From Lepidostoma basale (lineage: Eukaryota; Arthropoda; Insecta; Trichoptera; Lepidostomatidae): a stretch of 64,000 nt of DNA. Positions 6,832-61,990 of the stretch are shown piece by piece. The notes under the pieces were generated by a model, which saw only the letters and a list, made by a program, of their open reading frames with translations, was not told the DNA's origin and made no database searches. The translations under genes were made by a program, and so were the position numbers. Location of the stretch: the NCBI GenBank assembly GCA_022606425.2, contig JAHDVF020000136.1, positions 434,001 through 498,000 on the forward strand, in the 5' to 3' direction. Every line of letters begins with the position of its first letter. Position 1 is the first letter of the stretch.

Positions 6832-9800
6832 CTGAAAGTTAAAACAAGTTTATTTGTTATCTATATCAGAAGTCAATATTTCAAAATCTGGTTGTTTTCG
6901 AGACGATAGAATTTCTTGTCCCTGATTGTCTGGCGGTGAAAGCTGGAGAATACGTCATAATAACGAGCTGTGCAGCTATGAAGTTCCCCAAATCTCCACA
7001 CGTGTGAGACTGTATAGACTAAGATCCGGTTACGTACAGAGAATGCTGTCATTGTGAACCCCAAAAAGGAAGCTGGAGGGCTTCTACCACCTAGGTGGTA
7101 GAAGATTGGGCAAGATGTGTTTACATATGTCGCATATGAATATTTTTTTTGCATTTACTACACCTTTTTAAGACTTTCAAGGTCAAAATTCTTTGGCATA
7201 TAGAATGGAATAATACTCCTAGCGGCTTCTAACAATATGTTGGTCAACAGCCTTCACATTGTGTTAATAAGGTAGTTTGCTAAATGCCGAAAATCATTCT
7301 CCATAGATGGCGTTAGTGGGTCGGTTGTATAGGTTAATTCTTGAAAAAATTCACTAGTGCAACCAAATCTACATAGATGGCTGACTGAAACTGCCACGTG
7401 AAGATAAATATGGATTTTGAAGTATATATACATCTTCCAAAAATTTGTCATGCATGATCACAAATAACAAAGGTGGAATGGGGAATGTTGTAATTACATA
7501 AAGCGTGCGCTTAACCCAACCAATGACAGGTCATAAGTCCTGTAAACACCTTGATCATCCATGTTCAGTTTCCAGTTTGCGTCTTCGTCTCTATTGAGAT
7601 ACAATTAAAACCTTTTTAAGACCTTTAATTTTTGGTTAAACTATTTTATAGCTAAATACAATACACTTAGGAAATTGAAAGTAACTTTGTTTATTATCCA
7701 CAAAATATTAAAAAAACACGACATGTTTTGGAGAATACCTCAATCTTCAGGTGTAAAAAACTAAAGGCTAATATAAAAAATGCATTTAAAATTCGATACA
7801 ATATAAAAAATGCATTTAAAATTCGATACAATAATACAAGATGGAGGTTTCCTCCGAAACATGTCGTGTTTTTTAATATTTTGTGGATAATTTCTTTCTG
7901 TGGAGGTGGAGTGTGGAGAGTAAGGTATAACCAGGAGCTGGAAGGACTTTACAACGAGCCCAACATAATGAAGTTTATAAAAATACAGCGGTTGGGACAC
8001 CTCCAGCGAATGGAAGATGATCGAATCCCAAGGAAGATTTTCAATACACGACTAGATGGAAAATGAAGTGTGGGAAGACCAAATCTGAGGTGCATGGATG
8101 GTATGGAGGGGTGTTACAAACTGGAGAATGCGGGCGATCGACCTGGGAAAGTGGCGAAGCATTCTGGAGGAGGCCAGGGCCTATAGTGGGCTGTAGCGCC
8201 ATTGTTGTTGCTATGTCCAGCAGTGGAGAGAACAAGACTGAAGAAGTAGAAGAAGGTATATACCTCTGGGTGATAGTTGATGCACTTGTGAGGGCGGCGG
8301 CGTGCATGCGCCCCGGGGCGGCAGGGTGCAGGGGGCAGCTCGCGTGCCCCCGTTCCCAGCTGCTTCACCCCACACGGGCACAGTGTATCCACCACCAGCA
8401 GAATCAGGTTACTATGCGGGATTTTCTGCACACTGAACGGCCTGCAACATACACACACTCTATGTGATCTTGCTACATACACACGCTAAGCTTCTGAGCT
8501 TTTTTTATACAATAGATCATTTGAATCCAATTACTGTATTATTGCGCACTGTACAATGTGTGCGCCATCTAAAAATAACATTTTGTGTTAAATTATTTTA
8601 ATTTTGTTATTTTATTTTATATCATTGTATTTTATATTTAGATTTATTTTGTGGGTGTCGGACGATCGAAGTGTGCGCGGGAGATGCCTATTGGTGGCGA
8701 TGAGGTTCGCAACCCATCACACCGCGTCTCCTGCGGGGCGAAAAGAGAAGGATGGAGTGCCGCAAATGTTAAAGTGTGACAGTCCATTCTTTCTGCCTAC
8801 CCTTTCAGGGAGACGGCGTGATGGTTAGTTAGTTAGTTACAATACTGCATACAATTTATTTTAGCTATTATATTGATTTTCATGACATGTGGTAGGTAGC
8901 CAATCTATCGCCATTTTATTGTCTCGTGAATTCAATGCCAGACCAAAGACCATCGCCGGGAATCGAATCCGTGGCGAATTGAACCTTCTGTATGGCAGTC
9001 ATATAACTCTTGCCACTTTGCCGCGAAGGTCGTCTTGAAAAAACTCTTCATCCCCAGCTTAGCTTCTTGATAAAACGATCATGGGTTGTTTGGAGCTTGA
9101 TCATCGATCATTGATGATTATGGTGACTGGTTTAGCAATATCATTCATAAATATAATTTTATCTTCTTCTTCTTCTTCTTCTTTTGATAGATCTGACGAT
9201 CTGTGACACAGAAATCATGTCTCGTCGGATGATGAGATCCAGCTGTCCCTCCATCTCTTAGGCGGTCTTCCAGGTGGGCGGTGTCCGGAAGGGATTTCAT
9301 AGGCGGCTGTATATGCGAAGTCTGTCACCATCCATTCGGCTACATGGTCCTCCGGTATCTTCTTCTGGATCTGCTCCACTGAACGATATCCTCTATTTCG
9401 CAGGTTTTTAATTTTATGATTAAATTTAATGCTTTACGTGATTCCTGAAGATCAACTGGAGATAGATGTCTTTTATATTAGTGAAAGTACATTCGTAATA
9501 CTAATACTCTTGACTTTAGAGAGTATCTTTTCTTTCTAAAGTTGCATCATCTCTCATGCATTCATGGTATTATATTTTTCCTGTTTTCAAGTGAGTACAT
9601 ACCTTGAACCTTTAAGTTTTTGTATCAAATTGATTATTTTTGATTTATAAACTACAAAATAATGTAATCAAATGATTTTGCTGAAATCTATTGATGGGAG
9701 TTCATTTTATTAAATGAAATGAACATTATTTTTAAAGAAATAATTCATTGGTATTGATAGACTGGTCAGACCCAGTCTGTCGATACTAGCGAACCTGGCG

Positions 9801-12800
9801 AAATCGGTCGCTGTCGAAATGATGACAAAAGTGGAAAAAGTTCTTAAAAAACATTGTTTTTTTTTTAATTATTATTATAAAATAATTGTGTAACAATTCT
9901 CGATTTTAACGATTTATGGGCAGAGTGGCAACAGCTGTGACTGCCACACTAAAGGTTCCGGATTCAATTCCCGGCGATGCTGTGTGAAAAAATTTCACTT
10001 TGTCTTTGGTCTGGTAAAATTCACTTGATAATAAAAATGATGATAGACAAGCTACCTATCACATGTCAAGAGAATCAATAGCTTAATAGTTGTATACATT
10101 AATTGGGTTCAATTTATCTGTTTTATACAAAAAAGTGAAAACAACGAGAAATTTTCACACTAAATAGACTCAAATGGCATCCTTAGAGCCAGCAAAAGCT
10201 TAGAAACAAAAAAAAATACAATAAAATTCTTGTTTCTTGTTTTTGTCTCTGATTTCTGTAATTCATACCTTTCGCATCCAGTGACGTGGCAGTTGGTGAG
10301 CTTGCCCTTGAGCGGCTGGCTCATGTTGAGTCGCTCGGCCTGCAGCACATACAGGTCTGTGCGCTTGTCACAGGCGCGCACGCCCGCCCCTCCCCCGGCC
10401 GGGGGCGCGGGGCCCGGCGGCGGGGGTGGAGGCTGCTGGGGAGGCAGCGCAGCCGGCGGCTGCTGCGGCGGGGGCGGCGGGGCTTCTGTTGGGACCGTGG
10501 CTGCGGGGGGCACTTCCTCTGGCGGGTAGTTCTCTTCTTCCTCGTAGTCCGCATACGTGGGGTCACCGTATGCTAAATTTTGTAAAAATGATTTAATATC
10601 ATTCCACGTTTTCTCTCCCATCCCACACTCTGTCCCACCCTAACCAATGTGTTCCTGGTATTATGTTGTATTTGTATTATTTTACCTGTACTCAATAGAT
10701 GCCTTAAACATGTATGTTGTTTGTAATGTCTGTTGAGTTAATAAACTGATTTGAATTGATATCTGTCTGAAATAAAAATTTTCTGTTTTGTGAGATTGGG
10801 GCGTAGAAGTGAATCGAAATTAAACTAGATTTGGAATGTTGTATTCCCCAGTTAAAGTAAGTCCTGCGTGGATGGGGGGCTGGCCTAGGGATTGTATGAC
10901 CAAAGCTGAAGAAAGGGCGTCGCTGCGTCTTATCACAGCTTCGTGTAAGCGGTGGGTTACCTTCTATGTCTTTATTTAACTATATGTTTATTCATTTGTA
11001 TATGTATTAACAATCACTATATGTTACCCTACAATAAATAAATGACTTAATATTGATGAAAACATCAGTTTTCTAAAAGTTTTATTATATTTTGAGAGAG
11101 TGACATGTTTCAGGGGTCCCTTAGAGATAGGAAACCCAACACTACAAAATTGATGTCATAATAAGATGGAGTAGGCATTGAAGAGGATGGCCGTCCGGCA
11201 CGCGTCCGATATCGCGTCGACGTAGTCACCCACCTGCCTGTTGAGCGCGCCGTGCAGCGAGTTCGATTCAATCTTCCCTGCGGTGAGGTGTTTGTTCGCG
11301 AGATTGGTTCGGAGCGTCCTTTCAAACTTTTTCCAGTTCGCTCTGCTCGTCTTGTACAGGAAGGTCGATTCGTCGTTCCCGGCGTCGGGACTCCCGGCCA
11401 GCGAGACCGTGAATCTGATACCGTTGTGATCGGACAGAGGGGAGATGTCTCTGTCCACCCTCCAGTGCTCTATTTTCTCTATGAGATTGTTCGAGCAGAC
11501 GGTGACATCTACGATGCTGCTGAGGAGATTACCACCCCGCATTATGGAGGGAGGATGGATTCCTAAGATTGTGATACACGAGACTCCAGAGATCCGTCAA
11601 CCACCAGATCTATCACCAAAGAGATGCAGAGAAAGCTGGACGTTTTCATCACTGAATCAAATTTGATATCCTATCTAAACAGATTGCAAGATCTACATAA
11701 AGAAGAAGAAGAAAATGAAGAAGACATGCTTTGGCAAAGACAAAAGTCAAAAACCTCCTTGACAGAATAAAACATAGAGAAATCCAAAGAATATGTCAGG
11801 CTGAAGGCATTGTCAGATGAATGAGCATGTCTCTAGTATGCCAGATAATAGGATCCCAAAGATATTCCGAAATAATCTACTACAGATGAGATCTACTACC
11901 CGATAGAACTAATCTACTACCCGATCACATCCCAAGAAGACAGAGGTGCAACCATCAACAGGTTATTTGACCTCTCAGAAGAAGAAGACATATTTGCCTT
12001 TTTAGAGCACTGGAGCAAGATGAAACGTGTCACTTCGTTAAAATATAATGAAACTTTAATAACACTAACGTTTTCAACAAATATCAGATATTTAATATGG
12101 AGATTTAAAATTCATCTTTGATAAAGAAACTATTACTAATATAAATAGATGTATAAGATTGTTGACGTAAATAGATTGTTGACAATAATTTTTTCTAATT
12201 TTCACAAATATTTTTAAGATTTTTAGTGTGTATCTTATTTTAATAAAAATACGTTTATGAGATAGAAAAATATATACCTTCGTATGAAGTATTAAATTTG
12301 TGGGGTGGCATTAAAGTTGTTAACACTTGTGTATTTTGTTTTATCGAACAAACCGATTTCACTCCAACCGGAGCTTCGTCAGGGTTACAAAAACAAATTG
12401 AAGTTCCGGCAAGAGTGAAACTCGTTGGTTCCATAAAACAAAATAAAGTAGTGTGTACACAAAGCACACAAGTGTTATTAATTATTGTGATCATATTATA
12501 TATCCAATAATATCAAATTTAATAATAATTAGATTGTCGTAATTATATTTACATAATTCAGCATAAGGAATTGTGGGGTGGTTCAAATTCATGTTTAATT
12601 TTTAGTATATCATATCAGCCACAAGGATAGAATAGTTATTGTAAAGGAAGCTCACATTCATCTTGTGGGTAGGACTGGGCACGGCCTTGGGCTTCGTCCC
12701 ACAAGGGGACCCACATTGCTGCCAGACGCCACAGCCACGTTACAAACCAGTAAATAGGTCTTGAACTCTGAAATACAACAAAAAAATATTATTACTCTTA

Positions 12801-15800
12801 GATTCCCAACGAAGGCAGTACTCGCAATTAGGCATTCCATAGAGGGGGTAGTTAAACTAGAGGTAAATGAGGGGCGACCGTGACGAATGTATTTTAACAA
12901 ATAAAGAAACATTAATTCTATAATATATTCATAATCACTATGTTGCAGATTCACTTTTGAGTAACTTTTTGTATCATATTTTCACAAGATTTTATTGCAC
13001 TTTTCACAAACATGTTTGGGACATAGACACCCTTCCTCAGTATAGAAATTTTAACGTTAAAATTTCTACATTGACGAAGGCCGTCTATTTCCCGAAACTT
13101 ATTTGGGAAAGCGCAAGTGAAAATACTATTTTCATGAATAAGCAATATACAAAACTATCTAAAAATAGACTTTTGTGATTCATTTGATAATCTTTACAGT
13201 TTCAACTTTGTGATACAGTATAGATTGTTCTATCTGTCAGCCGCAAGGACCAACCTGCCTCTAGTAATGCCAGTGGGAAGAGTCATCGGTCTGCTGAACA
13301 TGATCCCCTTGGAGATTAACATCTTTAAAATAATTTTCTCTATAACGATGACAAAGCTCAGCCCCTTGGATATCGTTATGAAGAGAGAATACTGTATAAG
13401 TTTAATTCCACTTAGATTTATGGCTTCTACCAGTTTCAGCAGATATCTACTCTACTACCAGAAGATGATAGTTAGCTGTCAAAACCAGTCGAAGCCATAA
13501 ACCTAATATGTTTTGTGTAATTTTGGGTAACAACATATGATTTATCCTTCTCGACTGACATTTCGGGGATCGTTGCAATCTCCATCTTCAGAGTAATGTG
13601 GTGGTGGTAACGTGAAACGTCAGTCGAGAAGGAAAAATCACACCTTGTTTCCCAAAATCACACAAAACATATTGCTGCCAATCGTGAAAATCTACGCAAT
13701 TACCATAAACCTAAGTTCATTGTTAAATTTTTCATATATTTTTTTAATTTCATTATGTCTTAAACTTCTTTTGAGAAAATAAACTGATTAGATTTGATTT
13801 AATTGAAGCACTATCCTATAAATATTCAATTTTTCTGATTTCAAACAAGTGTAAAGATTACACAACACAGATACGTACGGATTTTTTTAAACTCAGGTTT
13901 ATCAAGAGAAGCCCCCTACCGTGAGTGAAGTCCCTTTAGCGCTGTAGGGGTTCTTGCCGTTGGGGCACCTCCCCTGGTAGTCGAAGAGTGGCACCTTCCT
14001 GTAGATGCGGTCCTGCACCAGCGAGTCCATAATGGTACCATCGATCTGGCCGAAGAACTGGCCTGTGTGACTGTATTCCTCAGAGAGGATCACGAAGCCA
14101 TTGTCATCCAAAATGTAGCAATCTAGATCCATGGAGGCGCAGTTCTTCTTGCAGTTGCCCGACCCTGTGCACTGCAATACCGAATCACGGTTAATTTGAT
14201 TTAACAAAAATTTGGACAAGTGTATGAAAGAGCTGAAAGGGTTGGATGTAGGTGCCAAAATGAGCTGCGTGTCAGTAAGCTATCTATTGTATGCAGATAA
14301 TGCTGTCATACTTGCAGATAACAAGCATGAACTACAAGTCCCGGTGACTAGTATGTATGAGGTATGCATGCGAAATGATCTGATGATGAAAGTGAATAAG
14401 TCTAAAGAAATGATTTTCGAAAAAGAAGAAATGACAGTCTGCAACATTAGTATGAAGGTTGAAAATCTGGAACTAGTGGATGAATTTGTTTATTTAGGAA
14501 GTACGAGTATGTTTACATAGGATGGGAGAGTGGAGAAGGATATTGAAAGAAGGGTTGGGGCAGGCAACAGAATAAATGGTGCACTAAGTTGTCATCGCAA
14601 ACAAAATCCTATCCAAAAAAGCTAAGATGGATAATGGTGTAGATAATATAGTAAATATTTAGGAAGTATGTTTACAATAGATAAGTGAGTGGAGAGAAAT
14701 ATTGAATGAAGGGTTGGGGCAGGCAACAAAGTGAATGATGCAATTCAAATTGTTATCGTTAATAAAAGCCAAATGGCAGTGTACAATGGTGTACTTGTAC
14801 CAACCCTTGTATATGGAAGTGAAGCATGAAACTGGCATAAGAAGGATGAAAGGATGAAACCGGGTGGTGGTCTAGGGGATAGAACGCTTGGCTCCTGATC
14901 TAGGGGACTTGGGTTCGAGCCTGGACACGACCAGATTCCTTCTTCATAATAATGAGCTATTTTCTGCTCACATTGAAGATTGTAAAATAAATTCTAATAT
15001 CATTGATTTAAAATCTTTGATGTTAGTCTTTTTTTAAAAAAAAAAAAAAAAAAGCAGAATAAATGCAATAGATTCGATATCTCTTAGGCGAATATGTGGT
15101 AAATCTGCATATGATATGGCTAGGGCAAATACTCACGGCAGAGGTGATGTTGACAAAGTGCTTGACGAGCGTCTGCAGCTGGAAGTGCAGGCCCACGACC
15201 GCGGCGGGGGCGCGGTGGCCGCGGTGCTCCACGAAGACGGCGTGCGTGGCCCGCACTAGGGGCTCCCCACCGGCCCCACCGCCCTCGCTGAAGGGCACCG
15301 AGAACACAAAGCTCTCCGGCTCCACAGAGTGGTGGTCCACAGCGCGCTTGTACCAGGGCGCGTCAAATGCCTTGTGGTATATCTCGCTGAAATGACTGGA
15401 AAACAAATTAATTCATTTTATTTTACAGTAAATATATGTGGTATTTACCACAAATCGAACTCAGTGCTGGCTGAATAGAACAGCAATAAGACAAACAGCA
15501 AGCATTATTTGCATTCCAAGTAATCTTTTTATTTTGTTTATTACTTTATTGATCATAATTTTTTTTTTAATTCTTACAACTAATGTACAACAGTTTTAAT
15601 AGCACATAGTTTAAACATATTTAAATAAATACGAGGCATATCTAGAAAGTAAGTGTTCTGAGGCTCTCACGGCTGGATGGATTTTATTTTCGACATGTTG
15701 GCTACACTTCCGTATAGTCTGACCCTTCCCCTTTGCAACGAGACCGGTTCTAGGTCAGTATGTTGAGAAGTGTCGACGGGACAACACGTTTCGTGAAAAA

Positions 15801-27800: not shown

Positions 27801-29034
27801 TCACGTGAATTCTACACCAGACCAAAGACAGTGTGACAATCACACTGCCCTCGCCGGGAATCAAACCCGGAACCTTCGGGGTAGCAGTCAATGCACTTAC
27901 CACTCGGCCACGAAGGTCGTCATTAAACAGCACTTACTATATTTTTTGTTCTGTATGCGCCAGTAGTAGCTCATTATAAAAGTGAATAAATATATGAAGA
28001 AAATCATAAACTAAAATGTCAACGAATGTTTTCTCGTTACATCCGAGATCTCGCTATTTCCGTTATCGCAATAACTGAGTTTAACTGTATGTTATTGTTT
28101 TAAAATGTTTAAAAATTACCTTATACGGAGGGACCAACTTCTTTATTTGATCGATAGGAACATCTGTACCAACTACGCCGAGTAGGTTTGCTTCTCTTTG
28201 CTGCAATACAATCATATACAATAATTAGAATTAATTTCTACTTACAGATATTTAAGGTAAAAACTTTTTATTATTTGTTTACCGTGTGGTTTCTTCTATC
28301 GAAGATCGGCGTGGTGACAGAGGTCATTAGCTGGCCTTGGCCATCATCGGCTAGACCCTCGCCCTAGAGAAGAAAAAAACGTGAAAATTAAAAAAAACAA
28401 AAAACGCCATTTCCGATTGCTTCTGGTATATAAAATTCTGAAATTATTTTCCGAGAATATGTTACTTCTAAAAATGACAATTAAAAATGGGGATCCAAAG
28501 GCCACTTGAAAGATGGGCTGGAACGACCTGGACGCGGAAGGGACAAATTAGGGACGAGTGGAAGAAAATGGAAGAGGCCTATATCCAGCAGTGGAGAACA
28601 GAAGGCTGAAGAATAAGAAGAAGAATTAAAAATAGTATTTATTGTTTCTTTAATCAAACCTTTCGTCTTGCTTATGCTAAGTGAATGGCATTTGATAATA
28701 CCTTAACAAGGCGAAACATTTTATTACTATAAAATATGGAAAACATTTAGAAAACGGACATTTCATTCGTATTCATTATTAAAAATATTGTTGGTTTTTT
28801 ACCACAATGTGTCGTACGTAATAATGTATAAACACAAAGATAAATGTAATAATATTAATAAATATACATTTGAATTACGTTTTTAAACTTTAAATAAATA
28901 TTTTATTTACTGCAATACAATTTTATTGTGTAAATTTAAATAGTAATATAACTAATAGAAAGATAAGATATAGAAATTAGAAATTGGGATGATTATCATA
29001 AATCATAACAATAATAATAATAATAAACAATAAT

Positions 29035-32000: not shown

Positions 32001-35000
32001 AAAACAAATAAACATTTTCGGATTCATACAATGGGTTTTATTATGTTTTGAAAAAAGGAAATTATGCTGCCGCACCCTTGAACATCCGTTAGAAAAGTAG
32101 GCCTCAACGTCAAACGCACGCTCCTCACTGTTCCAATGCACGATGCCAACTAAACTGCGTCGGGACAAAACTTTATAGTTTCGCCTCCCGAACGAAACCA
32201 CTAGTGCTCCGATACGACATCAACCGACTGAATGGCGTGCATTTTAAAAAATGAAGTTATGCTGCTGCTCCCTATCTGTAAAATAAATCAGCAGGGGGTC
32301 TATGGGACAAAAAATGTTTATGAACAACTGGTCAAGACCAACCGGAGTAAGACCTATTAGAAGGCCTACACAGCGCCTAGTGGATAATGTTCTGGCTGAT
32401 TTAACTAGGTTGGGCGAATCGGACTACTGGGAGCAAAAGACGCAGGATCGAAGAGCTTGGAGGAAAATCATCAAGGAGGCTAATACTCTTCAAGATGCTA
32501 TGCTTATTTATTCAATAAAGTACAGCGGAGCATAGAAGTAAGATGGGGTAGATTAAATGTGGTTTGGCACCCCCTTGTTGTTGCCGTCTTTAAATGTAAG
32601 TCACGGATGGACCGGGGACAGGCCCAGGGAGTGTACGAGCGAGGCTGACAAAAGGGCGCCGCTACGCCCTATAATAGCCTCGGATAGTTTAAAAAAAATA
32701 CTCTTCAAGAGTTGTATGGCCGTAGGAAGTAAACAAGTAAGTATTTCAATTCCATGTGTTACAGTCGGTACAAGAACACCAATGTTAGTATACTTAGAGG
32801 TTATGACGTCATGAAGCAGTAGTTATATTCACCCTTGTTGGAGCAGGCGATCCACTGCATGTGGGCGGCGCCGGGCGCATCCGCCCCCGCCAGGAAGGTG
32901 AAGACGCGGACGGGCATGTGCGGCCAGTTGTGGGCGCGGAAGACGTCTCGCGGCGCGCTGGACGCCCCGCCCGCCACCAGCATGGTCGCCTGGTTGCACT
33001 GGCACCCCTGCCCGGTGCGGTTATACTGGAAACATACCAATAACACATTAAAACTTTGATAAGAAGTCATTCCTTGGTGGTTTGACATATTTAAAATAAA
33101 ATTAAACAATTATGTCACAGTCCGTCCGTCCAGTGCGAACGGTGAGAAATTAGAGAAAGTTACCGAATTTTCCTGTTTCCTGCATGAGAGAGAGTAAAAC
33201 GTATGTGTGGTAGAACGATATACGACAGAATCTCAAATGCTGATATAAGAAAGGAATGTAGAGCGGAAGAAGGTATTATGAACAAAATTATGAAAGGATC
33301 GCTGCGATGGTTCGGACATATGGAACGCATGGATGGAGAAAGAATGGTTAAGAAACTATACGTTAATGATGTAAATGGGGTACAAAGTCGAGGCAGGCCG
33401 AGGAAAACATGGCATGACCAAATTAATCAAATTTTAAGGGTTGGTCATGTTAGAAGTCGGAGGAATCAACGTGCGTGTATGACTCGGTGTATGAATGTAG
33501 AGGAACCTAGAGAGGTTTGCCAGGATAGAGTAGTGTGGCGGTCCATTCTCTCTGCCTTCCCCTGCAGTGAAACGGCGTGATGGTTTGTTTGTTTGTTCGT
33601 TTGTCCTGCATGATGTTTTGGAGGGAATGGTCGAGGGATCGATTGGCGGAGACCCAGACCAGATTTGCCGAGATATGGGCTGCACCTCTTATGCGGAGTT
33701 GAAGAGAGTTGCCGAAGACCGAGCGGAGTGGAAGAGGAGATGCGTCGCCTTGCTGCAGACCAATCATTAGATTGAGACCGGAGAAGAGACTGAATTTGTT
33801 TATCTGGGAAGCATGTTTACAAGAGATGGAAGAATGGAGAAAGATATCGGAAGAAGGGTTGGAGCTGGAAACAAAATAAATAGTGCACTCAAAGTCATTA
33901 CCGCAAATGGAAATACGAGGTCTGTTCAAAAAGTATCGCGAATTTTGAATTTCCGCTGGCTACGTATATTTGATTTTTGATTTTTTTGTAGCGTTATGTT
34001 GGTACTCATGTCCCTTACTTATGCTGACAAGGTCGGCCATTTTGAATGTTTAGTTAATTTTTGACAGCTGTTTTGCTTGGATGTGTTTTGGCTCGTCTTC
34101 GATTTTTGCCTATTCCAAAAAATGGATCAAAGAATCTGTATCAAATTTTGTGTGAAAAACAAAATAAAGTGCGCGGACGCATTTCAAATGTTGACTGTGG
34201 CATATGGTGAAGCTACCTTGGACCAAAGCAACGTTTATCGGTGGTACAAAATGTTCTCAGAGGGCCGAGAAGATATGAACGACGAAGAGCGTGCCGGACG
34301 CCCGAGCACGTCAACAACAGACGAAAACATTGATAAAGTGAAGAAAATAGTATTAGCCAATCGTCGAATAACCGTTAGAGAAGTTGCTGAGGACCTAAAC
34401 ATATCGATTGGCTCGTGCCATTCGATTTTAACCAATGATTTGGGCATGAGTCGGGTCGCCGCGAAATTCGTGCCAAAATTGCTCAATTTCGACCAAAAAC
34501 AGCATCGCGTTAACATTGCTCAGGAGATGTTGGACTCGGTCCGTGACGACCCAAAATGTGCTCCAGAGGGTCATAACTGGTGACGAATCATGGGTTTATG
34601 GTTATGACGTGGAAACCAAAGCTCAATCATCCCAATGGAAGCTGCCGCATGAGCCAAGACCAAAAAAAGCGCGCCAAGTTCGGTCGAACGTGAAGGTTTT
34701 GCTCACAGTTTTCTTCGATTGCAGGGGCGTGGTGCATCATGAGTTCTTGCCACAGGGTAGTACGGTCAATAAGGAATATTACCTGCAAGTTATGCGCAAT
34801 TTGCGCGAAGCAATCCGCCAGAAACGCCCGGATTTGTGGAAGAACAAAAACTGGCTTTTGCACCATGATAACGCCCCTGCTCACACATCGTTGCTTGTGC
34901 GCGAATATTTGGCCAAAAACAACACAGTAATGGTGCCGCAGCCACCGTATTCCCCAGACCTGGCCCCCTGTGACTTTTTCCTGTTTCCAAAACTGAAGAG

Positions 35001-38000
35001 GCCCATGAAAGGACGACGCTACGCCACGATTGAGGAGATAAAGACGGCATCGAAGGAGGAGCTGAACAAGATCACAAAAAATGATTTTTTAAGTGCTTCG
35101 AGGATTGGAAAAAACGTTGGCATAAATGTATTATATCCGAGGGGAATTACTTTGAAGGGGACAAAATAGATATTCATGAATAAATAAATACTTTTTGAAA
35201 AAATATAAAATTCGCGATACTTTTTGAACAGACCTCGTATATCGACTGAAGCAAAGATGGCAGTGCACAATGGAGTTCTAGTCGCGACCCTTATGTATGG
35301 AAGTGAAGCTTGGAGTTGGCAGAAGAAGGATATAATAAATGCCGTAGAAATGAGGTCACTAAGAAGAATGTGCGGAAAAACAATGTTTGATAGAATATCT
35401 AATGATGAAGTAAGAAAGGAATGTAAGGCGGATGAATGCGTGATAAATAAAATTAAGAAAGGGTCACTAAGATGATTTGGACATATGAAACGAATGGATG
35501 AGAGAAGAATGGTTAAAAAGATATATACAAGTAGTGTGATTGGGAAAAGAAATCGAAGAAGGCCAAGGATGACATGGCAATTAATCAATTACTGAAAGGA
35601 GGCCATGTTTGAAGTAGGAACAATCGACGAGCGTGCATGTCACGATGTGTGAATGTAGAAGAGGCGCGAGAATTATGCCAGGATAGAACAGTGCGGCGAT
35701 CCATCCTCTCTGCCTACCCCTCCGGGGAAAGTTAGTTAGTTCAATTAACCACCCTACCACCCTCTAGTATTTTGAATTTCTATTATAATATACGAGTATA
35801 AGCAATGATGAAAACTTAGAAGGATTTTTTCTATAAAATGGCCAACCATTGCAGATTTCTTACTTCGACAATCGATGACTCTTAGGGAGTACTACAATCT
35901 TGCAAATTCCCATTCCAAAGTAAATTTCCTATGTCGTTTGTGTATAGCCCTGCGGAAGCTAGCTACAGAGTGAAATCGGTTTTCTACTTACTTACTTAAA
36001 TAAAGTGGTTTGATGAAGAACCAGATAAGAAGAAGAACCAAATGAAGTGATTTGAAGAAGAAGGAAAATCTGTGTCCCGAAACATGTTTGTGAAAGGCAG
36101 AAAAAAGTGTTTTCAAAAAGTTATTCAAATTAAAACCTCTCTGTCATATTAAAACATCTGTAAAAAAAAATCTATCGGAAGGTATATAAAAAAGTGGCTT
36201 CAGTAAAGAGCAATATAAATACTTGGCATAATTCGGGGTCGCGTTGCGTTAGTCAGGGGAAGTAACGAGGAACGGTTGCCATAAAAGAAAATTCTTTGTA
36301 TCTGCTAAAATAAAGGAATAAAATGTAAACCCGTAAACAAATTTCCTTATCCGAGATTCGTTTCCCATAATCACCGGATGGAATATTCGATAAATTTCAA
36401 ATAAACGTCCCCGCCTTTTGTGCTTCCCGCCGACAGCTACCCGCGCCCCTACCGTACCCACCCGCGCCCTTGGCCGCGTCCTTGGGCCGGCCGCCTCGGT
36501 AGGTACTGCCGCCTTACCTACCTACTAATGCACTCGAGACGTAGTTTCTGATGGCGAATTTTGTCCAAATAATGTTTTTATATTTTTTTTGTTATTTAGA
36601 AAAACTCTCCGAGATCGTGTCCGTAAGAGTAGGAGCTAAGACATAGATGGCTTGTGTTTACGCACTATGGCGCGAAGCATATAGTGTGGTCGGTCCCATA
36701 GTACGCCACACGTTGGTTAACCAGGTATTATAACCCTGACTCCTACCAGTGGCGGTACGCCTATAGAAGCCCAGAAGCCCGGCTTGCGTAAAACATTTTG
36801 AATCAAAACCCCCAAATCTAAGTAATCATGCCCCCGCATAAACCAACAACCCACCAAATCACCTTCCAACAATATTTCCACTAGATGTAAGAGGAATAGT
36901 CACAAGAGCTAAACCTCTGTAAGCCAGAAGAGGTTTTGATTCAAAATTTCTTACGCAAGCCGGGCTTCTGGGCTTCTATGGGAGTACCGCTACTGACTCC
37001 TACTCTGGCACTCCGGTGTGGCCGTAAACTAGCGCAGACATAAGAAAAACTTGCGAAATTGAAGATATCGCTCGGTGCAGTAGGTCCAGAAGAAGATACC
37101 GGAGGGACCATTTAGCCAGCATTGATAGTGACCTGGAAGACCACTTAATAGATGGAGGGACAGCCTTATCATCCCAGAAGACATGATTTCTGTACCACAC
37201 ATCGTTAGATCTATTAAAATAATTTTTATTTTATTTTCATCTTCTTATTCAGCCTATTTCCGTTCATTTCTGGACAAAGACATTCTATTTGCATCCACGC
37301 CACTCTGTCTTTTGCAGACTACATCCAGGATAAGACAATGTGTCAGTTCAGGTCATTCTTCCACCGTAGTTGCGATCGCCTTGCACTTCTCTTTGCGGTC
37401 CGTGGTCTCCAAGTCAGCATTCTCTTTGTCCATTTTTCGTCGAAAACTTTACGCTACATGACCTGCCTATTGCCATTTTAGAGTCGCTCCGCGCTGGAAT
37501 ATGTCAGTGACCTTTATTTTTTCTCTCATCGTATCATTTTTGACTCTGTCACTGAAGGTTTTTCCAAATATGGCTCTTTCCACGGCTTTTTGGGTCACTC
37601 GCAGTTTTTTGGCACTTGGTTTGGACAATGTGACAGTTTCAAGGCCAAAAGTGGTAACCGTTTTTATCATATTAATTAAAAATAGTTTTCAAACTCTTCA
37701 TGTAATTTGAAAATTAGGTTTTTTGTCATGATAGGTTCCCAACGAAGGCAGTACCGCACCCAGGGGGCGCTGGAGCCTTCCATGAAGGCGGTAGCAGGTG
37801 CAAAGGTAAATGCGGGCATTGAGGCAGTCAAGAAGTAACAGATTAAAAAATTATACGTTTATTAGAAATTTAAATATTTTCAACATATTCATTCGTTCAT
37901 TCATTCATTTTTCGGCGCTACATCCCGGTGTGGGACTTGGCCTCCACTGACTTCTGTCCCTGGCCATCTCTCCATAATCCAGCTCCTTCCATTTTATCCC

Positions 38001-41000
38001 AATCTTCTTCCACGCAATCCGCCCATCTTTTCCTCGGTCTGCCTCTTGGTCTCTTTTCGTGAGGCACTCATTTGGATATAATTTTTGGTGTTCTGCTCTC
38101 TGGCATTCTTTCTACATAGCCAGCCAACCATAGGCATTGAGACTTACAGAATCTCACTTCTTTTTCCTGGTTAATCAGTACTTCAAGTTCAAGGTTCCTT
38201 TTGATTATAAGTTCCATCCTCCAGCGTGGGTCAAAAAAATGTCCTCAGTATTATCCTCTCAAAAACTGCCAGCCTGCCTTCCTCCCTCTGCGTTAGAGAC
38301 CATATCTCACAGCCGTAGGTGACTGCTGGTTTTATGATAGTCTAATATATTAAAAGTTTGGTATTCCTGCTGAGTAACTTAGAGCCCAGAAGCTTCTTAC
38401 ACCCATGAAAAGATCGTTTTTTTTTAAAACATATAGAGTATAAATACATTTATTAAAAATTATTGACAACTGGGAAGATGAAAATAAGAAAATGATGTGG
38501 AAATGGCAAAACATGGATGATTGGAGAAAAATATTAAAAAGCCTATATACAACAGTGGATGGAAGAAGGCTGAAGGAAAGAAAGTGAATAAATTGACAAT
38601 AGTTTTCTAGAAGTGTTTGGTGGTTTTCTAGAAGTTTTACACCATTTTTTATGAAACAATAAATCAATAATTAATATCGTAATGTTTCGTTTTTCCGATG
38701 ATAAAAATATAACTTTAAATGTGCGTTGAGAAAATAAAATTGAACGTGAAAAAACCATGTTTTAATTTATAAATAATAAATAAATATTGTATAAATTACC
38801 TTGTGTAGGATCTCGAAGGCCACTGTGAGAGCCGCGGTGAAGTTAGCCTCGTTGCTGGTTTCAGGACTATTTTCCAGGGCGTACTTCAATTCCCTCACGT
38901 TCTCTTGTGTAGCCTGAAAAAATAAAAATATTAAAGAATGCACTGTCAGTGGCAAGGATGTATGAGGCATGCAAAAAGAGTGACTTGGTGATGAATGTGT
39001 CTAAATCTAAAGTGATAGTTTTCGAGAAAGAAGAATGTATGACGATTTGTGATATAAGTGCGATGGGCGAGAAATTGGAGCAAGTTACTGAATTTACGTA
39101 TCTGGGAAGCATGTTTACAAGAGACGGAAAAATGGAGAAAGACATAGAAAGGAGGGTTGGTGCTGGGAATAAAATAAATGGCGCACTCAAAGTCATTACT
39201 GCAAATAGAAATATATCCACAGAAGCAAAGATGGCAGTACACAATGGAGTTCTAGTGCCAACCCTCATGTGTGGAAGTGAAGCTTGGAGCTGGCAAAAGA
39301 AGGATGAAAGCAGGATAAACGCCGTAGAAATGAGATCACTAAGAAGAATGTGCGGGAAAACGTTGTATGATAGAATACCGAACGATGAAATAAGAAAGAA
39401 ATGTAAGACAGATGACTGCATCGTGAATAAAATTAAAAAAGGATCCCTGAGATGGTTCGGATATATGGAACGAATGGATGAGAGTAGAATGGTTAAAAAG
39501 TTGTACACAAGCAGTGTGAGTGGGAAAAGAAGCCGAGGACGACCGAGGAAAACATGGCATGACCAAATTAACCAATTACTAAAAGGCGGCCAAATTCGAA
39601 ATCGGAATAATCGACGTGCGTGCATGGTGCGATGTATGAATGTGGAGGAAGCCCGAGAGGTGTGCCAGGACAGGCCAGTGTGGCGATCCATCCTCTCTGC
39701 CTACCCCTCCGGGGAAATGGCGTAATGGTTAGTTAGTTAGTTAGTATTAAGTAGATTGATTATATAAACCATTGTTTTGGGGCAAACACAAAAATACTTC
39801 AACATTTTTAAGCGTTTAATTTGGAAGAATATTCCATATATCCTTCCTGGAATAAGGAATTACCTGCCAGTTGGTAATTAAGTGCCGAGAATCTAAGAGT
39901 GACCCTAAGAGCCATGGAAAGAGCCATGTTAGGAATAAACCTCAGAGACAGAGTTAGAAACAGAAACGATACGGTGAGAGAAAAAACAAAGGTCACTGAC
40001 ATCATCCACCGGATGGAGACTCTAAAATGGTAATGAGCAGGTCACGTAGCCAGAAGCTCAGATGAAAAATGGACTAGAAGACTGTTGACTTGGAGACCAT
40101 GCAGGGCGACCGCAACTACGGTGGAAGGATGATCTGAACAGACACGTCGGAATAACCTGGATGCAGTCTGCACAAGACAGAGTGACATGGAAGCGAATAG
40201 AGGAGGCCTTTGTCCAGGAGTGGACGGGAATTGGCTGAGGAAGAAGAATTTGGAACACTATTATGACAATCTGAAATATTTGTCAAAGAAGACTAAATGA
40301 CACTCATGTATCCAATTTTCCAGAGGTTAAAATTGTATGAAACATTTATAAACAGGTGCATATTTAATATTTATTTTACAATACAAGCAGATATTATTTT
40401 TTTTAACCTTACTATATTATATACCAAGTTTATGTTATGCTAATTTGGCAGAATATGTTATTTGATGATAATTTATATTATATTACCGAGTAAATGGGCT
40501 TCACAATAACACACTTTGGCTTTTATTTATATAGATAGAAACTACATTTAGAAATTAGTTATGTTGTTATCATAATGAAGCTACGGTGGCGGCGAAACCG
40601 CTTGTTATAAAAACAAATGAACTTATAGATATAAAATAATAAATCACTTTGTATTTAACCACGGTATGGTTATTATAATCGATGCCAACTAGTTTCGCTT
40701 GGACCCTTCCTCCATCAGGGCAGTATAATAACTTATTAATTTATTATATTGCCCTGATGAAGCTTGGGTCCAAGCGAAACTAATTGGCATCAATTATGCA
40801 TTAAAAATATAATTATCTATTTTTATTTTTGACAAACTAAACAGAATTCCATAATGACTTTTTTTTATGAATTAAATCACTCTTTTCTCCATTTTTTTGT
40901 TAATTTCTCTCGACATGTTTCGAAGGCTTTACACCTTCACCATCGGTAGAATGATATAAACGTTTATATCGTACTCCCGATGGTGAATTTGTAAAGCCTT

Positions 41001-44000
41001 CGAAACATGTCGAGAAAAATAAACGCAAAAGTGGAAAAAAAAACTGTTTTTATTTATAAAAAAACTTGAATGTTGCTTGAAGTTAATTTATACACTGTTA
41101 GGTGAGAAATTATCACGTAGAAAGTCGTCTTTTTTACCTTGACGATGCTCCGGTGGGAGTGAAACCGGTTAATTCTAAAAACAAATTACACGAGTCTTTT
41201 TTTTTTAATAATGTCGCACCACAAATTGAGTGCTTCAAAGAAAAACTATAAGGTGCTTTATTAAAAATAAAATAAAAGTTGTCTAAGTGGATAAAAAAAA
41301 TCAACGTCCCGCAGAATGACTCGATATGCGGCATAGATTTAAAACGTCTGACGTGAATAAAAGCACTTAAGAAACTATAAGAGCCGCGAAACAGTTTCTT
41401 GAAAGAAGGAGCACTCGATACGTTCTCGGGCGAACAGCGGCGGCGACGAAACTTTTATAAAAAGCTCAAAATGAAAAACGTAAAGCGTTCTCTAAGACTG
41501 CACGTAAAAGTATTGCGAGAAAAATTATTTTTGTGTTGATTTATTCAAGTGCTGCAGAAAAAATGCATGGAAAACATATTTCGCATCAAATAAGTTGAAA
41601 ATAATATAATTAATACCAATGAAAACGTATATTTTTTTGAAGTTTTATTATACTTTATGGTAATTACATTTGATCAAGATTTGATAATACATTAATGCAA
41701 ATTATGAAAGGATCATAAATACTGTCCACAAATTGAAATGCGCGCAACGATCCATGGAGCGGCAAATGTTGAGCATAAGTCTGAGTGATAGAATTACAAA
41801 TACAGAAATCAGACGCCGAACAAAAGTCGCCGATATCATGGATCGGATCGCAAAATTGAAATGGCAATGGGCAAGACACGTAGCCAGATAGCCAAGTTCA
41901 AGATGGACTACCAAAGTGGAGGCCATGGGAAAACAAAAGGGGTGTCGGTCGGCCACAGAAGAGATGGGCCGACGATATTGTTGTGGTCGCCGGGAAAAAA
42001 TGGATTGAAGCGGCACAGGATAGAGAAAAATGGAGACAGATGGAAGAGGCCTACATCTAGCAGTAGAGGGAAGGCTAGGAAGAAGATGAAAGGATCGCTG
42101 CAATGGTTCGGACATTTGGAGCGCATGGGTGTAGAAAAAATGGTTGAAAAAGTATACGTTAACGATGTAAATGGAGAACGGAGTCGAGGTAGACCGAGGA
42201 AAACATGGCATGACCAAATTCATCAAATTTTAAAGGTTGGTCATGTTAGAAGCCGGAAGAATCGACGTACGTGTATGACTCGTTATATGAATGTGGAGGA
42301 AGCTAGAATAGTATGTCAGGATAGAGTAGTGTGGCGGTACATTCTCTCTGCCTACCTCTGGGGGGAAACGGCGTGATGGTTTGTTACTGTTGATAACACA
42401 TTAGAAGAGCGAAAGATGTCATTGTCATAAAATATAACAATACTTCGAGAAAACAGTCGTTTTCTTTCATATTAATTATATAAAATTGAGTTTTACACCA
42501 TTGTTCAAGAAACAAATAATAAATTGATATGTTTTTTATAGTTAGAAATCAGTAATTAGACGAGTTATCTTCATAGTTTGTTTCAAATCCTAATATCCTT
42601 CGAATAAGTCTTCAAGACTTAATTAGAATATAAATTAGAGATATTTAAATTTATTATGCAATCTCCGAATTCAGTAGAAATACTCGTTATTATTAATATG
42701 CAAACGGGTTGTGTTCAAGCATGAATGTTCCCTGGATTAGGAGGGGAAACGTTTTGTCCATTAGACCACCACGCGAATTATTATACATTTGATTTGTCCC
42801 AAAATTTCAAAATAAAAAGATTTAATTGATTAAAATTGTTGTTCCGAGAAAGGATTCTTATTTTAAATGTTTTTCGTTATATTTAACAGAAATCAGTTTA
42901 TGAGTTTAGCATTACGTATAGGGTACTGTTAATTTTTCAGGTCTTGAATATATTGTCTTAGCTATTATACTTGAAAATAACACAATTTTATAATTTATGT
43001 ATATACCTATATTTTTTTATAAATCTAATCCATAAAATAAAAATTGTAAAATGTACCCCCCCCCCCCTCAGTGGGCATTCGAGCTTCCCGTGGGGGAGGT
43101 TATAATTCTAGAGGTAAAATGGATAGTTAAATAAATGGGGGCGTTAGGGGCATTAAGGGGGGTGGTCGTGGCGTTAGTATTTAAAAAATATAATAATTTA
43201 AAACTTTGTCACGTAAAAAACATTTTTATACATTGCGTTATCTTTTTAATTTCAACTTGATATTAAATAGATATAGATTTTGTGTAACAATAAATAAATA
43301 TTTAAATAATAATATAAGAAGTGAATGCGGTGCGAATGATGGTGTTATCATCAAAATAATGAAAGGATCATTAAGATGGTTTGGAAGAATGAATGAAGAA
43401 AGAATGGCAAAAAAATTATATGTTAACGATGTTAATAGAACCAGAAACAGAGGAAGACCGAGGAAAATGTGGCACGATCAAATAAATCAAATATTGAATG
43501 TCAGCCATGTGAGGTGTCAGAGAAATCGACGCGCGTGCATGACACGATGTATGAATGTTGAGGAAGCGAGAGAAATATGTCAGGAAAGAAAAGTGTGGCA
43601 GTCCATTCTTTCTGCCTACCCCTTCGGGGAGACGGCGTGATGGTTAGTTAGTTAGTTTTTAACACATAGTGATGGTATGCTTTTTATTTAATCTAGCTAT
43701 TTATTTAGGTGAATGTGTGTAAATTTTGGCTTTAAATTTTGTTTGAAACAATGTATAATATATTTGAATATTTCAGTCCTGCACATTCTCGGAGGAGTAA
43801 GGAGTAGGACCGCACCTGGTTGCCTTCGGTTCGGCAAGTCTGGGAAACTTTTTTCATAACAAGCCCCGGGCGCGAGCGGTGGAGAGGATGGATTTGCAAA
43901 GAATATGTTTATGAAGAAACTTTCATACAAGATCAATAAAACAGGCTTTATCAGTTTATTATAATATTATTATAAACGATTTTCTCGAGCGCAGACGGCC

Positions 44001-54699: not shown

Positions 54700-54780
54700 G
54701 ATTCCCACACATTTGATAATACCCTAATGAGGCGAAACATGTCAAAATAATTAAACTTCTATGATAGAAAACACACGATA
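54700..54780 (+). repeat. GGCGAAACATGTC module copy
   Basis: TTTGATAATACCCTAATGAG GCGAAACATGTCAAAA; relatives at 28691, 55952, 59993 and 430. Confidence 0.55.
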
Positions 54781-55178: not shown

Positions 55179-55264
55179 GAAATGGAGTATTATTTCATTG
55201 AACAATGTCAATTTTTTATTATTTTGTACAAAACACCAACTTTATTAAAAAAATTAAAATTAAA

Positions 55265-55420
55265 AAACAAACTTGTTTTGGACACTGAAGCCCTTCATCA
55301 GTGATATTAATATTATAAACATATTTCTTTTTTACATACTTTGTATATACAACACATATATTTAAAAAAATAAAATTACATAGACATGTTTCGGACAAAC
55401 AATCCTTTTTCAGTGATACA
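55265..55420 (-). repeat. Two hammerhead-like modules in tandem
   Basis: Reverse reads CACTGATGAAGGGCTTCAGT GTCCAAAAC at 55303-55271 and CACTGAAAAAGG...GTCCGAAACATGTCT at 55415-55382. Confidence 0.6.
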
Positions 55421-55944: not shown

Positions 55945-56040
55945 TAAGACATTTAATAATGCCTTATCAAGGCGAAACACGTCATTCCATAAAATGTAAT
56001 AAACCTTCTAGAAAACATAATTTTTCATTCGTAGTAATTA
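55945..56040 (+). repeat. GGCGAAACACGTC module copy
   Basis: TTTAATAAT, GCCTT-ATC-AAGGC, GAAACACGTCAT. Confidence 0.6.
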
Positions 56041-58568: not shown

Positions 58569-59410
58569 TTGTCTATTTAATTTATGTTCCACGAATCCAC
58601 CGTTTTTTTAAATTTAGCACATAATGTTTTTCCGATGTTGCACATGTTGACATGGACGATCCGGACTTTTGTGTTTATTTAATTTATGTTACACGTATCC
58701 ACCGTTTTTTAAATTAGCTGTTATATGATTTAATTATTGTTCCACGTATCCACTTTTTTATTTGGCAGTAATTAGGCACTTAAAACCAACCAACACCAGC
58801 AAGAACTTTAAAAGAATATTGAAGAAATTATTCAAATTGTCATTGGAACAAATGAAAATTTTATTTTTACACCTGTCAAAGTTCTTTATATAAACGAAAA
58901 AACTTGTATAATTTTGACATCAAAACAGTACAAACGTATTACGTCTCACAATTAACTATTATAAATTGCGGCAACAATCAAATTGACTAAAACAATTCAC
59001 TTATACACGTAATTTCGCCAAATTCACGGGAGCACCACATGAACCAAACCAAATTTTAATTAACGGAGTATGTTAATTAATTATGTTAAGCAAAATTGTA
59101 AATTTTTAAGATGTTTTAATGATAATTTTAAATAAACTTTATCACCCTTAGGCCAGTAACTTTTGTACCTCACTACGTAGCAAGCTGGTAGCGTGCAGGG
59201 GGCGACATTAAAGGACTTATCAAAATACCTAGAAATGTGTCAATGGGTTTGGATATTTATGCTAACTGATGTTTTTATAACCCAATGAACATTCCTTACT
59301 TATACGAATTCCTATTAAATGATACTATTTATTGCTCTGATACGTATGAAATACGTATTATATTTTATGATTAAATGATATTAATAAAACAAAATATTAA
59401 CTGAATAATA

Positions 59411-59608
59411 ATTAAATAAAACGATGTTTTTTAACAACTTCCACTTTTGTCTTTATTTCGACAGCGACCGGTTTCGCCAGGCTCGCCGGGTCTACTACGA
59501 CTGGTCTAAACCAGTCTATCGATGCCAGCGAGCCTGGCGAAACCTGTCGCTGTCGAAATAAAGACAACAGTGGAAGTAGTTTAAAAAACATCGTTTTATT
59601 TATTTATT
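59411..59608. repeat. Hairpin repeat with two opposed modules (unit e)
   Basis: Arms of ~90 bases around ACTGGTCTAAACCAGT. + arm: ATCGAT, GCCAG-CGAGC-CTGGC, GAAACCTGTCGC; - arm has GAAACCGGTCGC. Partial copies at 3040, 9770 and 18110. Confidence 0.85.
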
Positions 59609-60045
59609 ATTTAAAATGAACTTTCCATCCAGAGGTTTCAGTAAAATGATTTGATTATTAACTGAATATTTTTTATATTTTTAAAGTAAAACCATTTTGT
59701 ATTAAACCTCTTTTATTTATGATGGTACTGAGACATTTCATTGGTTATCTTTTTTTATTAAAAAATACGAACACCAGGAATTTTACATCGATTTTATTAG
59801 AATTATATATACTATCTCCAATATGAGCAGAAAAAATAGCATACTGTTTTGATGAAGGAATCGGGTCGCGTTCAGGATTGAACCCACGTCACATGAATTT
59901 AGGATCTAAGCATTTCCTTTCCTTTCTAGGGACCTAGAGAGAATTTGGATTGACTGTCCCATTCTTCCCAGAACGCTTGGATCATGTCCCATTTGATATT
60001 GCTTTAGCAAGGTGAAACATGTCATTCCCATAAAACATTGGTTTC

Positions 60046-61815: not shown

Positions 61816-61867
61816 CCTTTACATAAAGGTAAGAAAAATCAAGAAAATTTGACATTTAATATATTTT

Positions 61868-61990
61868 TGGAACACCTGATGATGTCAACATAGGTTGGCG
61901 AAACAGCTGTCGCGTAAAAAAAATTCGCGTTAATTGTAAATACAATTGTGATACATAAAACAAAGTTTTTTAATTTAACAGTTTATAATG
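61868..61990 (+). repeat. One arm of hairpin unit c
   Basis: CTGATGA, T, GTCAAC-ATAG-GTTGGC, GAAACAGCTGTC at 61876-61911, then the same AAAGTTTTTTAATTTAACAG end as 53712-53926. Confidence 0.8.

Follow-up and report, generated by a model that had tools for sequence, protein, structure and literature searches.

The window analysed here is a 64,000-nt stretch of the trichopteran Lepidostoma basale (assembly GCA_022606425.2, contig JAHDVF020000136.1, positions 434,001 to 498,000). It contains eleven families of short repeats, designated F1 to F11 and assigned by eye and with BLAST, that share a module resembling a hammerhead ribozyme (Table 1). The layout common to the families consists of stem I, CUGANGA, a single A or U, stem II, GAA, a palindrome of the form AC..GU and finally C or U. 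A twelfth family with this layout (L004:420) was found in an independent sample of the same assembly, comprising 19 stretches of 10 kb outside the window (190 kb). A preliminary description of the window had claimed at least eight families with one layout, and the sequences that it listed lie at the expected positions to within a few bases. Its family list was incomplete, as further families are present at 13591 (-), 13040 (-)/36055 (+) and 13452 (+). Its example at 55952 holds a module belonging to F10, whose usual core is UUGAUAA.

Excess of the module over chance

The module is genuine and clearly exceeds chance expectation. A strict scan, requiring GAAAC and allowing at most one core mismatch, returned 10 sites in the window, four of which carry a perfect CTGANGA (40754+, 53829+, 53808- and 61876+), while 20 shuffles of the window gave 0-5 sites each, with one perfect core in 3 of the 20. 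A scored descriptor of the kind proposed in the preliminary description, permitting 0, 1 or 2 extra bases before stem II, was compared with 10 shuffles. At a score of at least 18 it gave 11 sites, against a mean of 0.9 in the shuffles, and at a score of at least 20 it gave 7 against 0.1; exactly one extra base separates A9 from stem II in all 11. Below a score of 16 the window was not clearly above the shuffles (32 vs 19.6 sites at 15 or more). A covariance model built from the window families (R1) produced 23 window matches at E<0.01, training families included. In the sample it identified 49 modules at E<0.01, rising to 67 when E<1 was accepted. F11 was recovered by R1 (E 5e-4) without being a training family, and also sits in an inverted repeat.

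Table 1. Module-bearing features in the window (window coordinates; strand in brackets)
Feature	Location	Modules	Details
F1 insertion	53654..53929	53815-53767 (-); 53822-53870 (+)	head-to-head arms 53712-53925; 58-nt tail 53654-53711, left only
F1 direct repeat, 15 bp (length uncertain)	53639..53653 (left); 53930-53944 (partner)		
F1 solo module	61869..61917 (+)		perfect core; F1 tail sequence recurs on 3' side
F2 inverted pair	40675..40797	40747-40791 (+); 40725-40681 (-)	arms 40675-40735 and 40737-40797; stem I GCC/GGC
F3 inverted pair	40860..41064	40953-40906 (-); 40970-41017 (+)	CCGATGG core in both arms
F4 insertion	59408..59655	59509-59554 (+); 59496-59460 (minus arm, weak)	arms 59404-59611; 44-nt tail 59612-59655, right only
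F4 direct repeat, 13 bp	59395..59407 (left); 59656-59668 (partner)		TATTAACTGAATA
F4 solo modules	9770..9815 (+); 18111-18156 (+)		
F5 inverted pair	12318..12459	12389-12345 (-)	core CTGACGA
F5 solo module	41132..41176 (+)		core TTGACGA; palindrome ACCGGT
F5 possible further copies	40565; 35943		weak scores
F6	55264..55420 (-)	55420-55377; 55308-55264	same direction, 112 nt apart
F7 inverted pair	7691..7892	7757-7714 (-); 7831-7871 (+)	stem I ACAC/GTGT
F8 insertion	13507..13702	13598-13551 (-)	arms 13505-13673; 29-nt tail 13674-13702, right only
F8 direct repeat, 12 bp	13495..13506 (left); 13703-13714 (partner)		CCATAAACCTAA
F9 inverted pair	12995..13116	13047-13003 (-); 13064-13109 (+, weak)	
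F9 solo module	36048-36094 (+)		
F10 modules, E<0.01	55946..55989 (+); 59986-60029; 54706-54749		
F10 modules, weaker	28685; 16767 (-); 405		
F11 inverted repeat	13412..13506	13452-13496 (+)	core CAGAAGA

Covariation of the helices

The order of the helices, with an open stem I, is that of a hammerhead, stem III being represented by a palindrome only. Stem I had been described as not evident, but it is present in several families. In permutation tests using one copy per family, picked partly for preservation, the sum of stem I runs was 26 vs 9.1 (P=1e-4), or 19 vs 5.7 when only Watson-Crick pairs were counted (P=4e-4). The co-variation check on stem II suggested earlier was likewise positive, with pairing in 38 of 40 cells vs 22 (P<1e-5); nine rows open stem II with a G-C pair and one with G-U. 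Stem III amounts to a short AC...GU palindrome, of which five versions occur (ACGU, ACAUGU, ACUAGU, ACCGGU and ACAGCUGU), and the 15.1-16.1 pair is A-U in 63 and G-U in 2 of the 67 rows of an alignment of the sample matches at E<1, which was fitted to R1 and includes related copies. This alignment holds 195 double-changed cells, where shuffles gave 71.3 and no slid register more than 73; an alignment of 10 typed, mostly composite rows, one per family, gave 38, where shuffles gave 13.8 and no slid register more than 11. Individual copies behave in the same manner. In F9 a stem I pair is compensated between CACA/UGUG (L019:3306) and UACA/UGUA (L014:6084), and one F5 copy (L003:8074) shows a stem I, AACC/GGUU, which the window F5 copies lack.

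Covariation thus supports all three hammerhead helices. That both stems and the palindrome of stem III vary together between families also speaks for the descent from hammerhead-bearing elements that had been proposed at the outset. Intact copies carry GUC or GUU as the predicted cleavage triplet, in keeping with the NUH rule. With no more than a short palindrome for stem III, cleavage would be expected mainly in the dimer, i.e. between two transcripts or between two units in one, and the modules are probably minimal type I hammerheads that act as dimers. A fortuitous likeness, in which GAAAC hairpins without shared origin or function merely look like hammerheads, could draw on the shortness of the core, the several damaged copies and the weak descriptor matches that are equally common in shuffles. 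It is contradicted by the excess of high scores, by the covariation between families and by the 49 modules that R1 matched at E<0.01 in the sample from outside the window; this explanation is refuted as far as sequence allows, and we regard it as very improbable.

State of the core and the extra base

Copies with an intact CUGANGA and GAA are present in F1, F2, F5, F7, F8 and F9. One F3 copy has CTGATGA but an altered GAA, and the F6 copies seen each have one core position changed. In F10, 16 of 21 rows combine U3 and A8, a covariation found in natural hammerheads and active in vitro according to PMC3088659. The damaged cores reported earlier for several copies were confirmed in F3 (CCGATGG) and F4 (CTATCGA and CTGTCGA).

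The extra base before stem II had been described as non-canonical. The base is not random: in the 49 sample modules it is U in 34, A in 12, G in 2 and a gap in 1, i.e. U or A in 46. In known hammerhead alignments, insertions beside CUGAnGA are no longer than one or two bases (PMC10085705), so a single extra base is not unprecedented. With it, the stretch A9-U-G10.1 reads AUG in 33 of the 49 modules. Read from this AUG, F1 reaches a stop after 3 codons and most F10 copies do so early; some F4, F8 and F10 copies keep an open frame over 20-43 codons. The predicted cut lies 25-29 nt downstream of the AUG (counted by hand in F4, F7, F8 and F10). The extra U may be the central base of what was once a start codon.

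Head-to-head pairs, tails and flanking repeats

A BLAST survey of 254 kb (window and sample fragments) with 12 family units as queries located 141 loci, or approximately 1 per 1.8 kb, 60 of them F10; where a match did not reach the core, the core position was extrapolated. Solo units are common. Same-family neighbours at most 45 nt apart were inverted in 31 cases and on the same strand in 1, which resembles one copy split by an insertion. Among the 31 inverted pairs, 22 are plainly head-to-head and 9, which the automatic classification called tail-to-tail, have overlapping 5' ends. Ten same-family pairs on the same strand, mainly F10, are 46-260 nt apart; clusters therefore exist. One F10 cluster (L007:3462-3957) comprises two successive head-to-head pairs about 160 nt apart, with more F10 arms before them. 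Other local features include a duplicated stretch within the stem II region of an F10 module (L013:5311-5364) and an F1 module (L012:9835-9895), and a perfect 30-nt tandem repeat of 2.1 copies in the spacer of the F7 pair (7770-7833).

These same-strand pairs, together with the two F6 modules facing one direction, would fit retrozyme-like elements, whose direct tandem units with type I hammerheads give rise to circular RNAs as the spreading form. The metazoan non-LTR retrozymes, as described in PMC7229834, resemble the present families in being non-coding, AT-rich and equipped with a type I hammerhead. They differ, according to the same account, in consisting of direct tandem units that measure about 170-400 nt and in a usually fuller stem III in invertebrates, whereas stem III is minimal here, as in Penelope-like elements (PLEs). 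Since, in addition, inverted pairs prevail 31 to 1 within 45 nt and a tandem-repeat search of the window reported no sizeable array of module units, a retrozyme-like origin appears improbable.

A search for flanking repeats close to the arms showed nothing clear, and the tails were revealed on widening it to 80 nt. F8, F4 and F1 are flanked by direct repeats of 12, 13 and 15 bp, respectively, the length for F1 being uncertain because the repeat lies in a 10-bp tandem array. One copy of each repeat lies within 4 nt of an arm, and its partner beyond a tail of 29, 44 or 58 nt present on one side only. The background for a flanking repeat of at least 12 bp is 0.5%. In an unrestricted search of 33 pairs, repeats of at least 10 bp were found in 12, compared with a background of 8.6%, some of them inside the arms. 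With a wider geometry (78-105 nt on one side and 110-160 nt on the other), repeats of at least 9 bp were present in 11 of 27 sample pairs; the rate was 4.8% when places were drawn at random, and swapped flanks gave 59 of 702. As these ranges were chosen after the unrestricted search had shown the same pairs, the test was repeated with the ranges spanned by window F1, F4 and F8 alone. This strict geometry gave repeats of at least 9 bp in 8 of 27 sample pairs, against 28 of 702 (4.0%) with swapped flanks (P 7e-6) and 2.9% at random places, and repeats of at least 10 bp in 4 of 27 against 12 of 702 (P 1e-3). Many of the flanking repeats are AT-rich.

Flanking direct repeats, an inverted-repeat shape and the presence of mariner-type transposases in the same genome would also fit miniature inverted-repeat transposable elements (MITEs) or foldback relatives of a DNA transposon, with the hammerhead likeness explained as a terminal hairpin or protein-binding motif. 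A fragment of a mariner-type transposase (Transposase_1, DDE_3) lies in the window at 34450-35166 (+). However, a one-sided tail and a repeat length varying between 9 and 15 bp do not suit a cut-and-paste element, solo units are frequent, and a protein-binding site gives no reason for three covarying helices of unrelated sequence. We therefore consider a MITE origin unlikely to be correct.

Probable derivation from Penelope-like elements

Each unit measures about 80-150 nt; a minimal type I hammerhead occupies the 5' edge, and the 3' part is AT-rich. Inverted pseudo-long terminal repeats (pLTRs), palindromes at the junctions, an optional one-sided tail of 31 bp and target-site duplications of 8-10 bp are reported for Penelope inserts, for which self-priming was suggested, in PMC3846280. 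The head-to-head repeats, one-sided tail and short flanking repeats are alike in the two cases. The Penelope inserts of that account flank an open reading frame (ORF) or captured DNA, whereas here two short ORF-less units meet directly. PAc, a Poseidon element of Anolis, provides a mechanistic parallel (PMC11167929): its PLE protein cuts and extends both strands, reverse transcription begins internally, 111-118 bp into the ORF, and the tail corresponds to the sequence separating two start sites. The PAc hammerhead overlaps the start of the ORF such that C3 and G8 precede the start codon; it is cut 26 nt downstream, and only in the presence of the protein. A tail of 30-40 bp and an AT-rich target are likenesses to the present families, as would be a hammerhead at the ORF start, with C3 and G8 ahead of the start codon, and an internal start of reverse transcription. 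Conversely, PAc is autonomous and has its protein (PMC11167929), while the AUG at A9-U-G10.1 soon meets a stop in several families.

Minimal type I hammerheads are dispersed by the thousands in animal genomes and PLE pLTRs, where their role is called a mystery (PMC7761336), so that the kind of ribozyme is already known. With these (PMC7761336 and PMC6155905) the present modules share CUGANGA, stems I and II, a reduced stem III and the proposed action as dimers. They may differ from them by the extra A or U found nearly throughout between A9 and stem II, and no PLE ORF was seen nearby among the ORFs scanned.

Since the anatomy observed directly here, comprising the covarying module, the head-to-head bias, the tail and the flanking repeats, has been described for PLEs (PMC3846280 and PMC11167929), the elements are read as ORF-less PLE derivatives that arose by two-sided target-primed reverse transcription. 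A Penelope-like source, one of those named in the preliminary description, is thus favoured by the pairs, the one-sided tail and the flanking direct repeat. The probability that the elements are short, non-autonomous retroelements of the PLE type, lacking an ORF and carrying minimal type I hammerheads, is put at roughly 0.8. We infer a PLE enzyme and ribozyme catalysis acting as follows. A PLE protein supplied in trans would nick both strands of an AT-rich target, and reverse transcription would begin within the unit RNA at one or other of two positions, of which the second, 29-58 nt beyond the first, would define the tail. Joining of the two cDNAs at their quasi-palindromic 5' ends would then account for the head-to-head pair, for a tail confined to one side and for the short target-site duplication. 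The ribozyme would serve to trim multimers of the transcript, cleaving after NUC or NUU, or may be partly dispensable, because some families multiplied with damaged cores.

Several observations weigh against this derivation or against an active ribozyme within it. No hammerhead was found by Rfam at gathering score across the window, or even at E up to 10 in 40300-62000 and 61850-61950, an outcome that the preliminary description had named as counting against a hammerhead; covariation is judged here to outweigh it as a test. When pairs with a double change, rather than cells, are counted, shuffles are not clearly exceeded in either the 10-row alignment (9 vs 7.5; 86/500) or the 67-row alignment (218/500). 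Judged by secondary-structure energies only, eight of the nine copies evaluated had a dimeric fold 11-18 kcal/mol less favourable than the best cofold; for F5 at 41139 the difference was only 2.4 kcal/mol, and F2 was outside the nine evaluated. All 8 rows of F4, counted after removal of 5 F1 rows (core CTGATGA, ACAGCTGTC), carry U at position 6, and F11 has the damaged core CAGAAGA or CAAAAGA, so that some families spread despite a probably poor ribozyme. No clear flanking repeat was seen for F2, F3, F5, F7, F9 and F11 in the window, even with one mismatch allowed, and among the sample pairs none was seen in 19 of 27 with the strict and 16 of 27 with the wider geometry. Finally, no PLE protein (reverse transcriptase or GIY-YIG) was detected with Pfam in 40 ORFs, made up of 20 of the 94 window ORFs of at least 90 aa and 20 of the 44 sample ORFs of at least 140 aa; the matches obtained were mariner-type transposase fragments, a DDE_1, an HLH and weak HTH.

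Other features of the window

Rfam microRNA (miRNA) precursor models match the F2 and F3 hairpins (40673-40799 and 40862-41062) far below their gathering scores, and such matches are a likely source of false miRNA annotation. An Rfam tRNA match at 27846-27917 (-), with 31.8 bits at a gathering score of 29, was not reported by ARAGORN and is perhaps a tRNA-derived repeat. Two inverted repeats, 96% complementary, are without an R1 module (43551-43654/44050-44153 and 1355-1427/1488-1560). An R1 match at 58866 (+; E 0.016) was set aside as chance, as were two stretches from a pattern scan of IMG/VR, one of them apparently coding.

Implications

Neither minimal hammerheads nor inverted repeats are new for PLEs; the newer aspect is the swarm of paired mini-units. 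ORF-less head-to-head mini-units were not found in the literature searched, and the primary papers on PLE hammerheads may describe them. Tentatively, and with less than even confidence, the families may be seen as a class of palindromic mini-retroelements, a counterpart of MITEs among retroelements, for whose two-sided target-primed reverse transcription a PLE protein would be borrowed. In such a class, represented by many paired families at about 1 locus per 1.8 kb of the sequence examined, the ribozyme would overlap the (former) AUG by way of a fixed inserted U. As intact, U3-A8 and damaged cores coexist among many small insertions, it can be asked whether the state of the ribozyme predicts spread. 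The geometry of tails and flanking repeats constitutes a genomic record of insertion that is comparable with the in vitro mechanism of PMC11167929, and pairs of this kind may be misfiled as MITEs or miRNA precursors in genome annotation.

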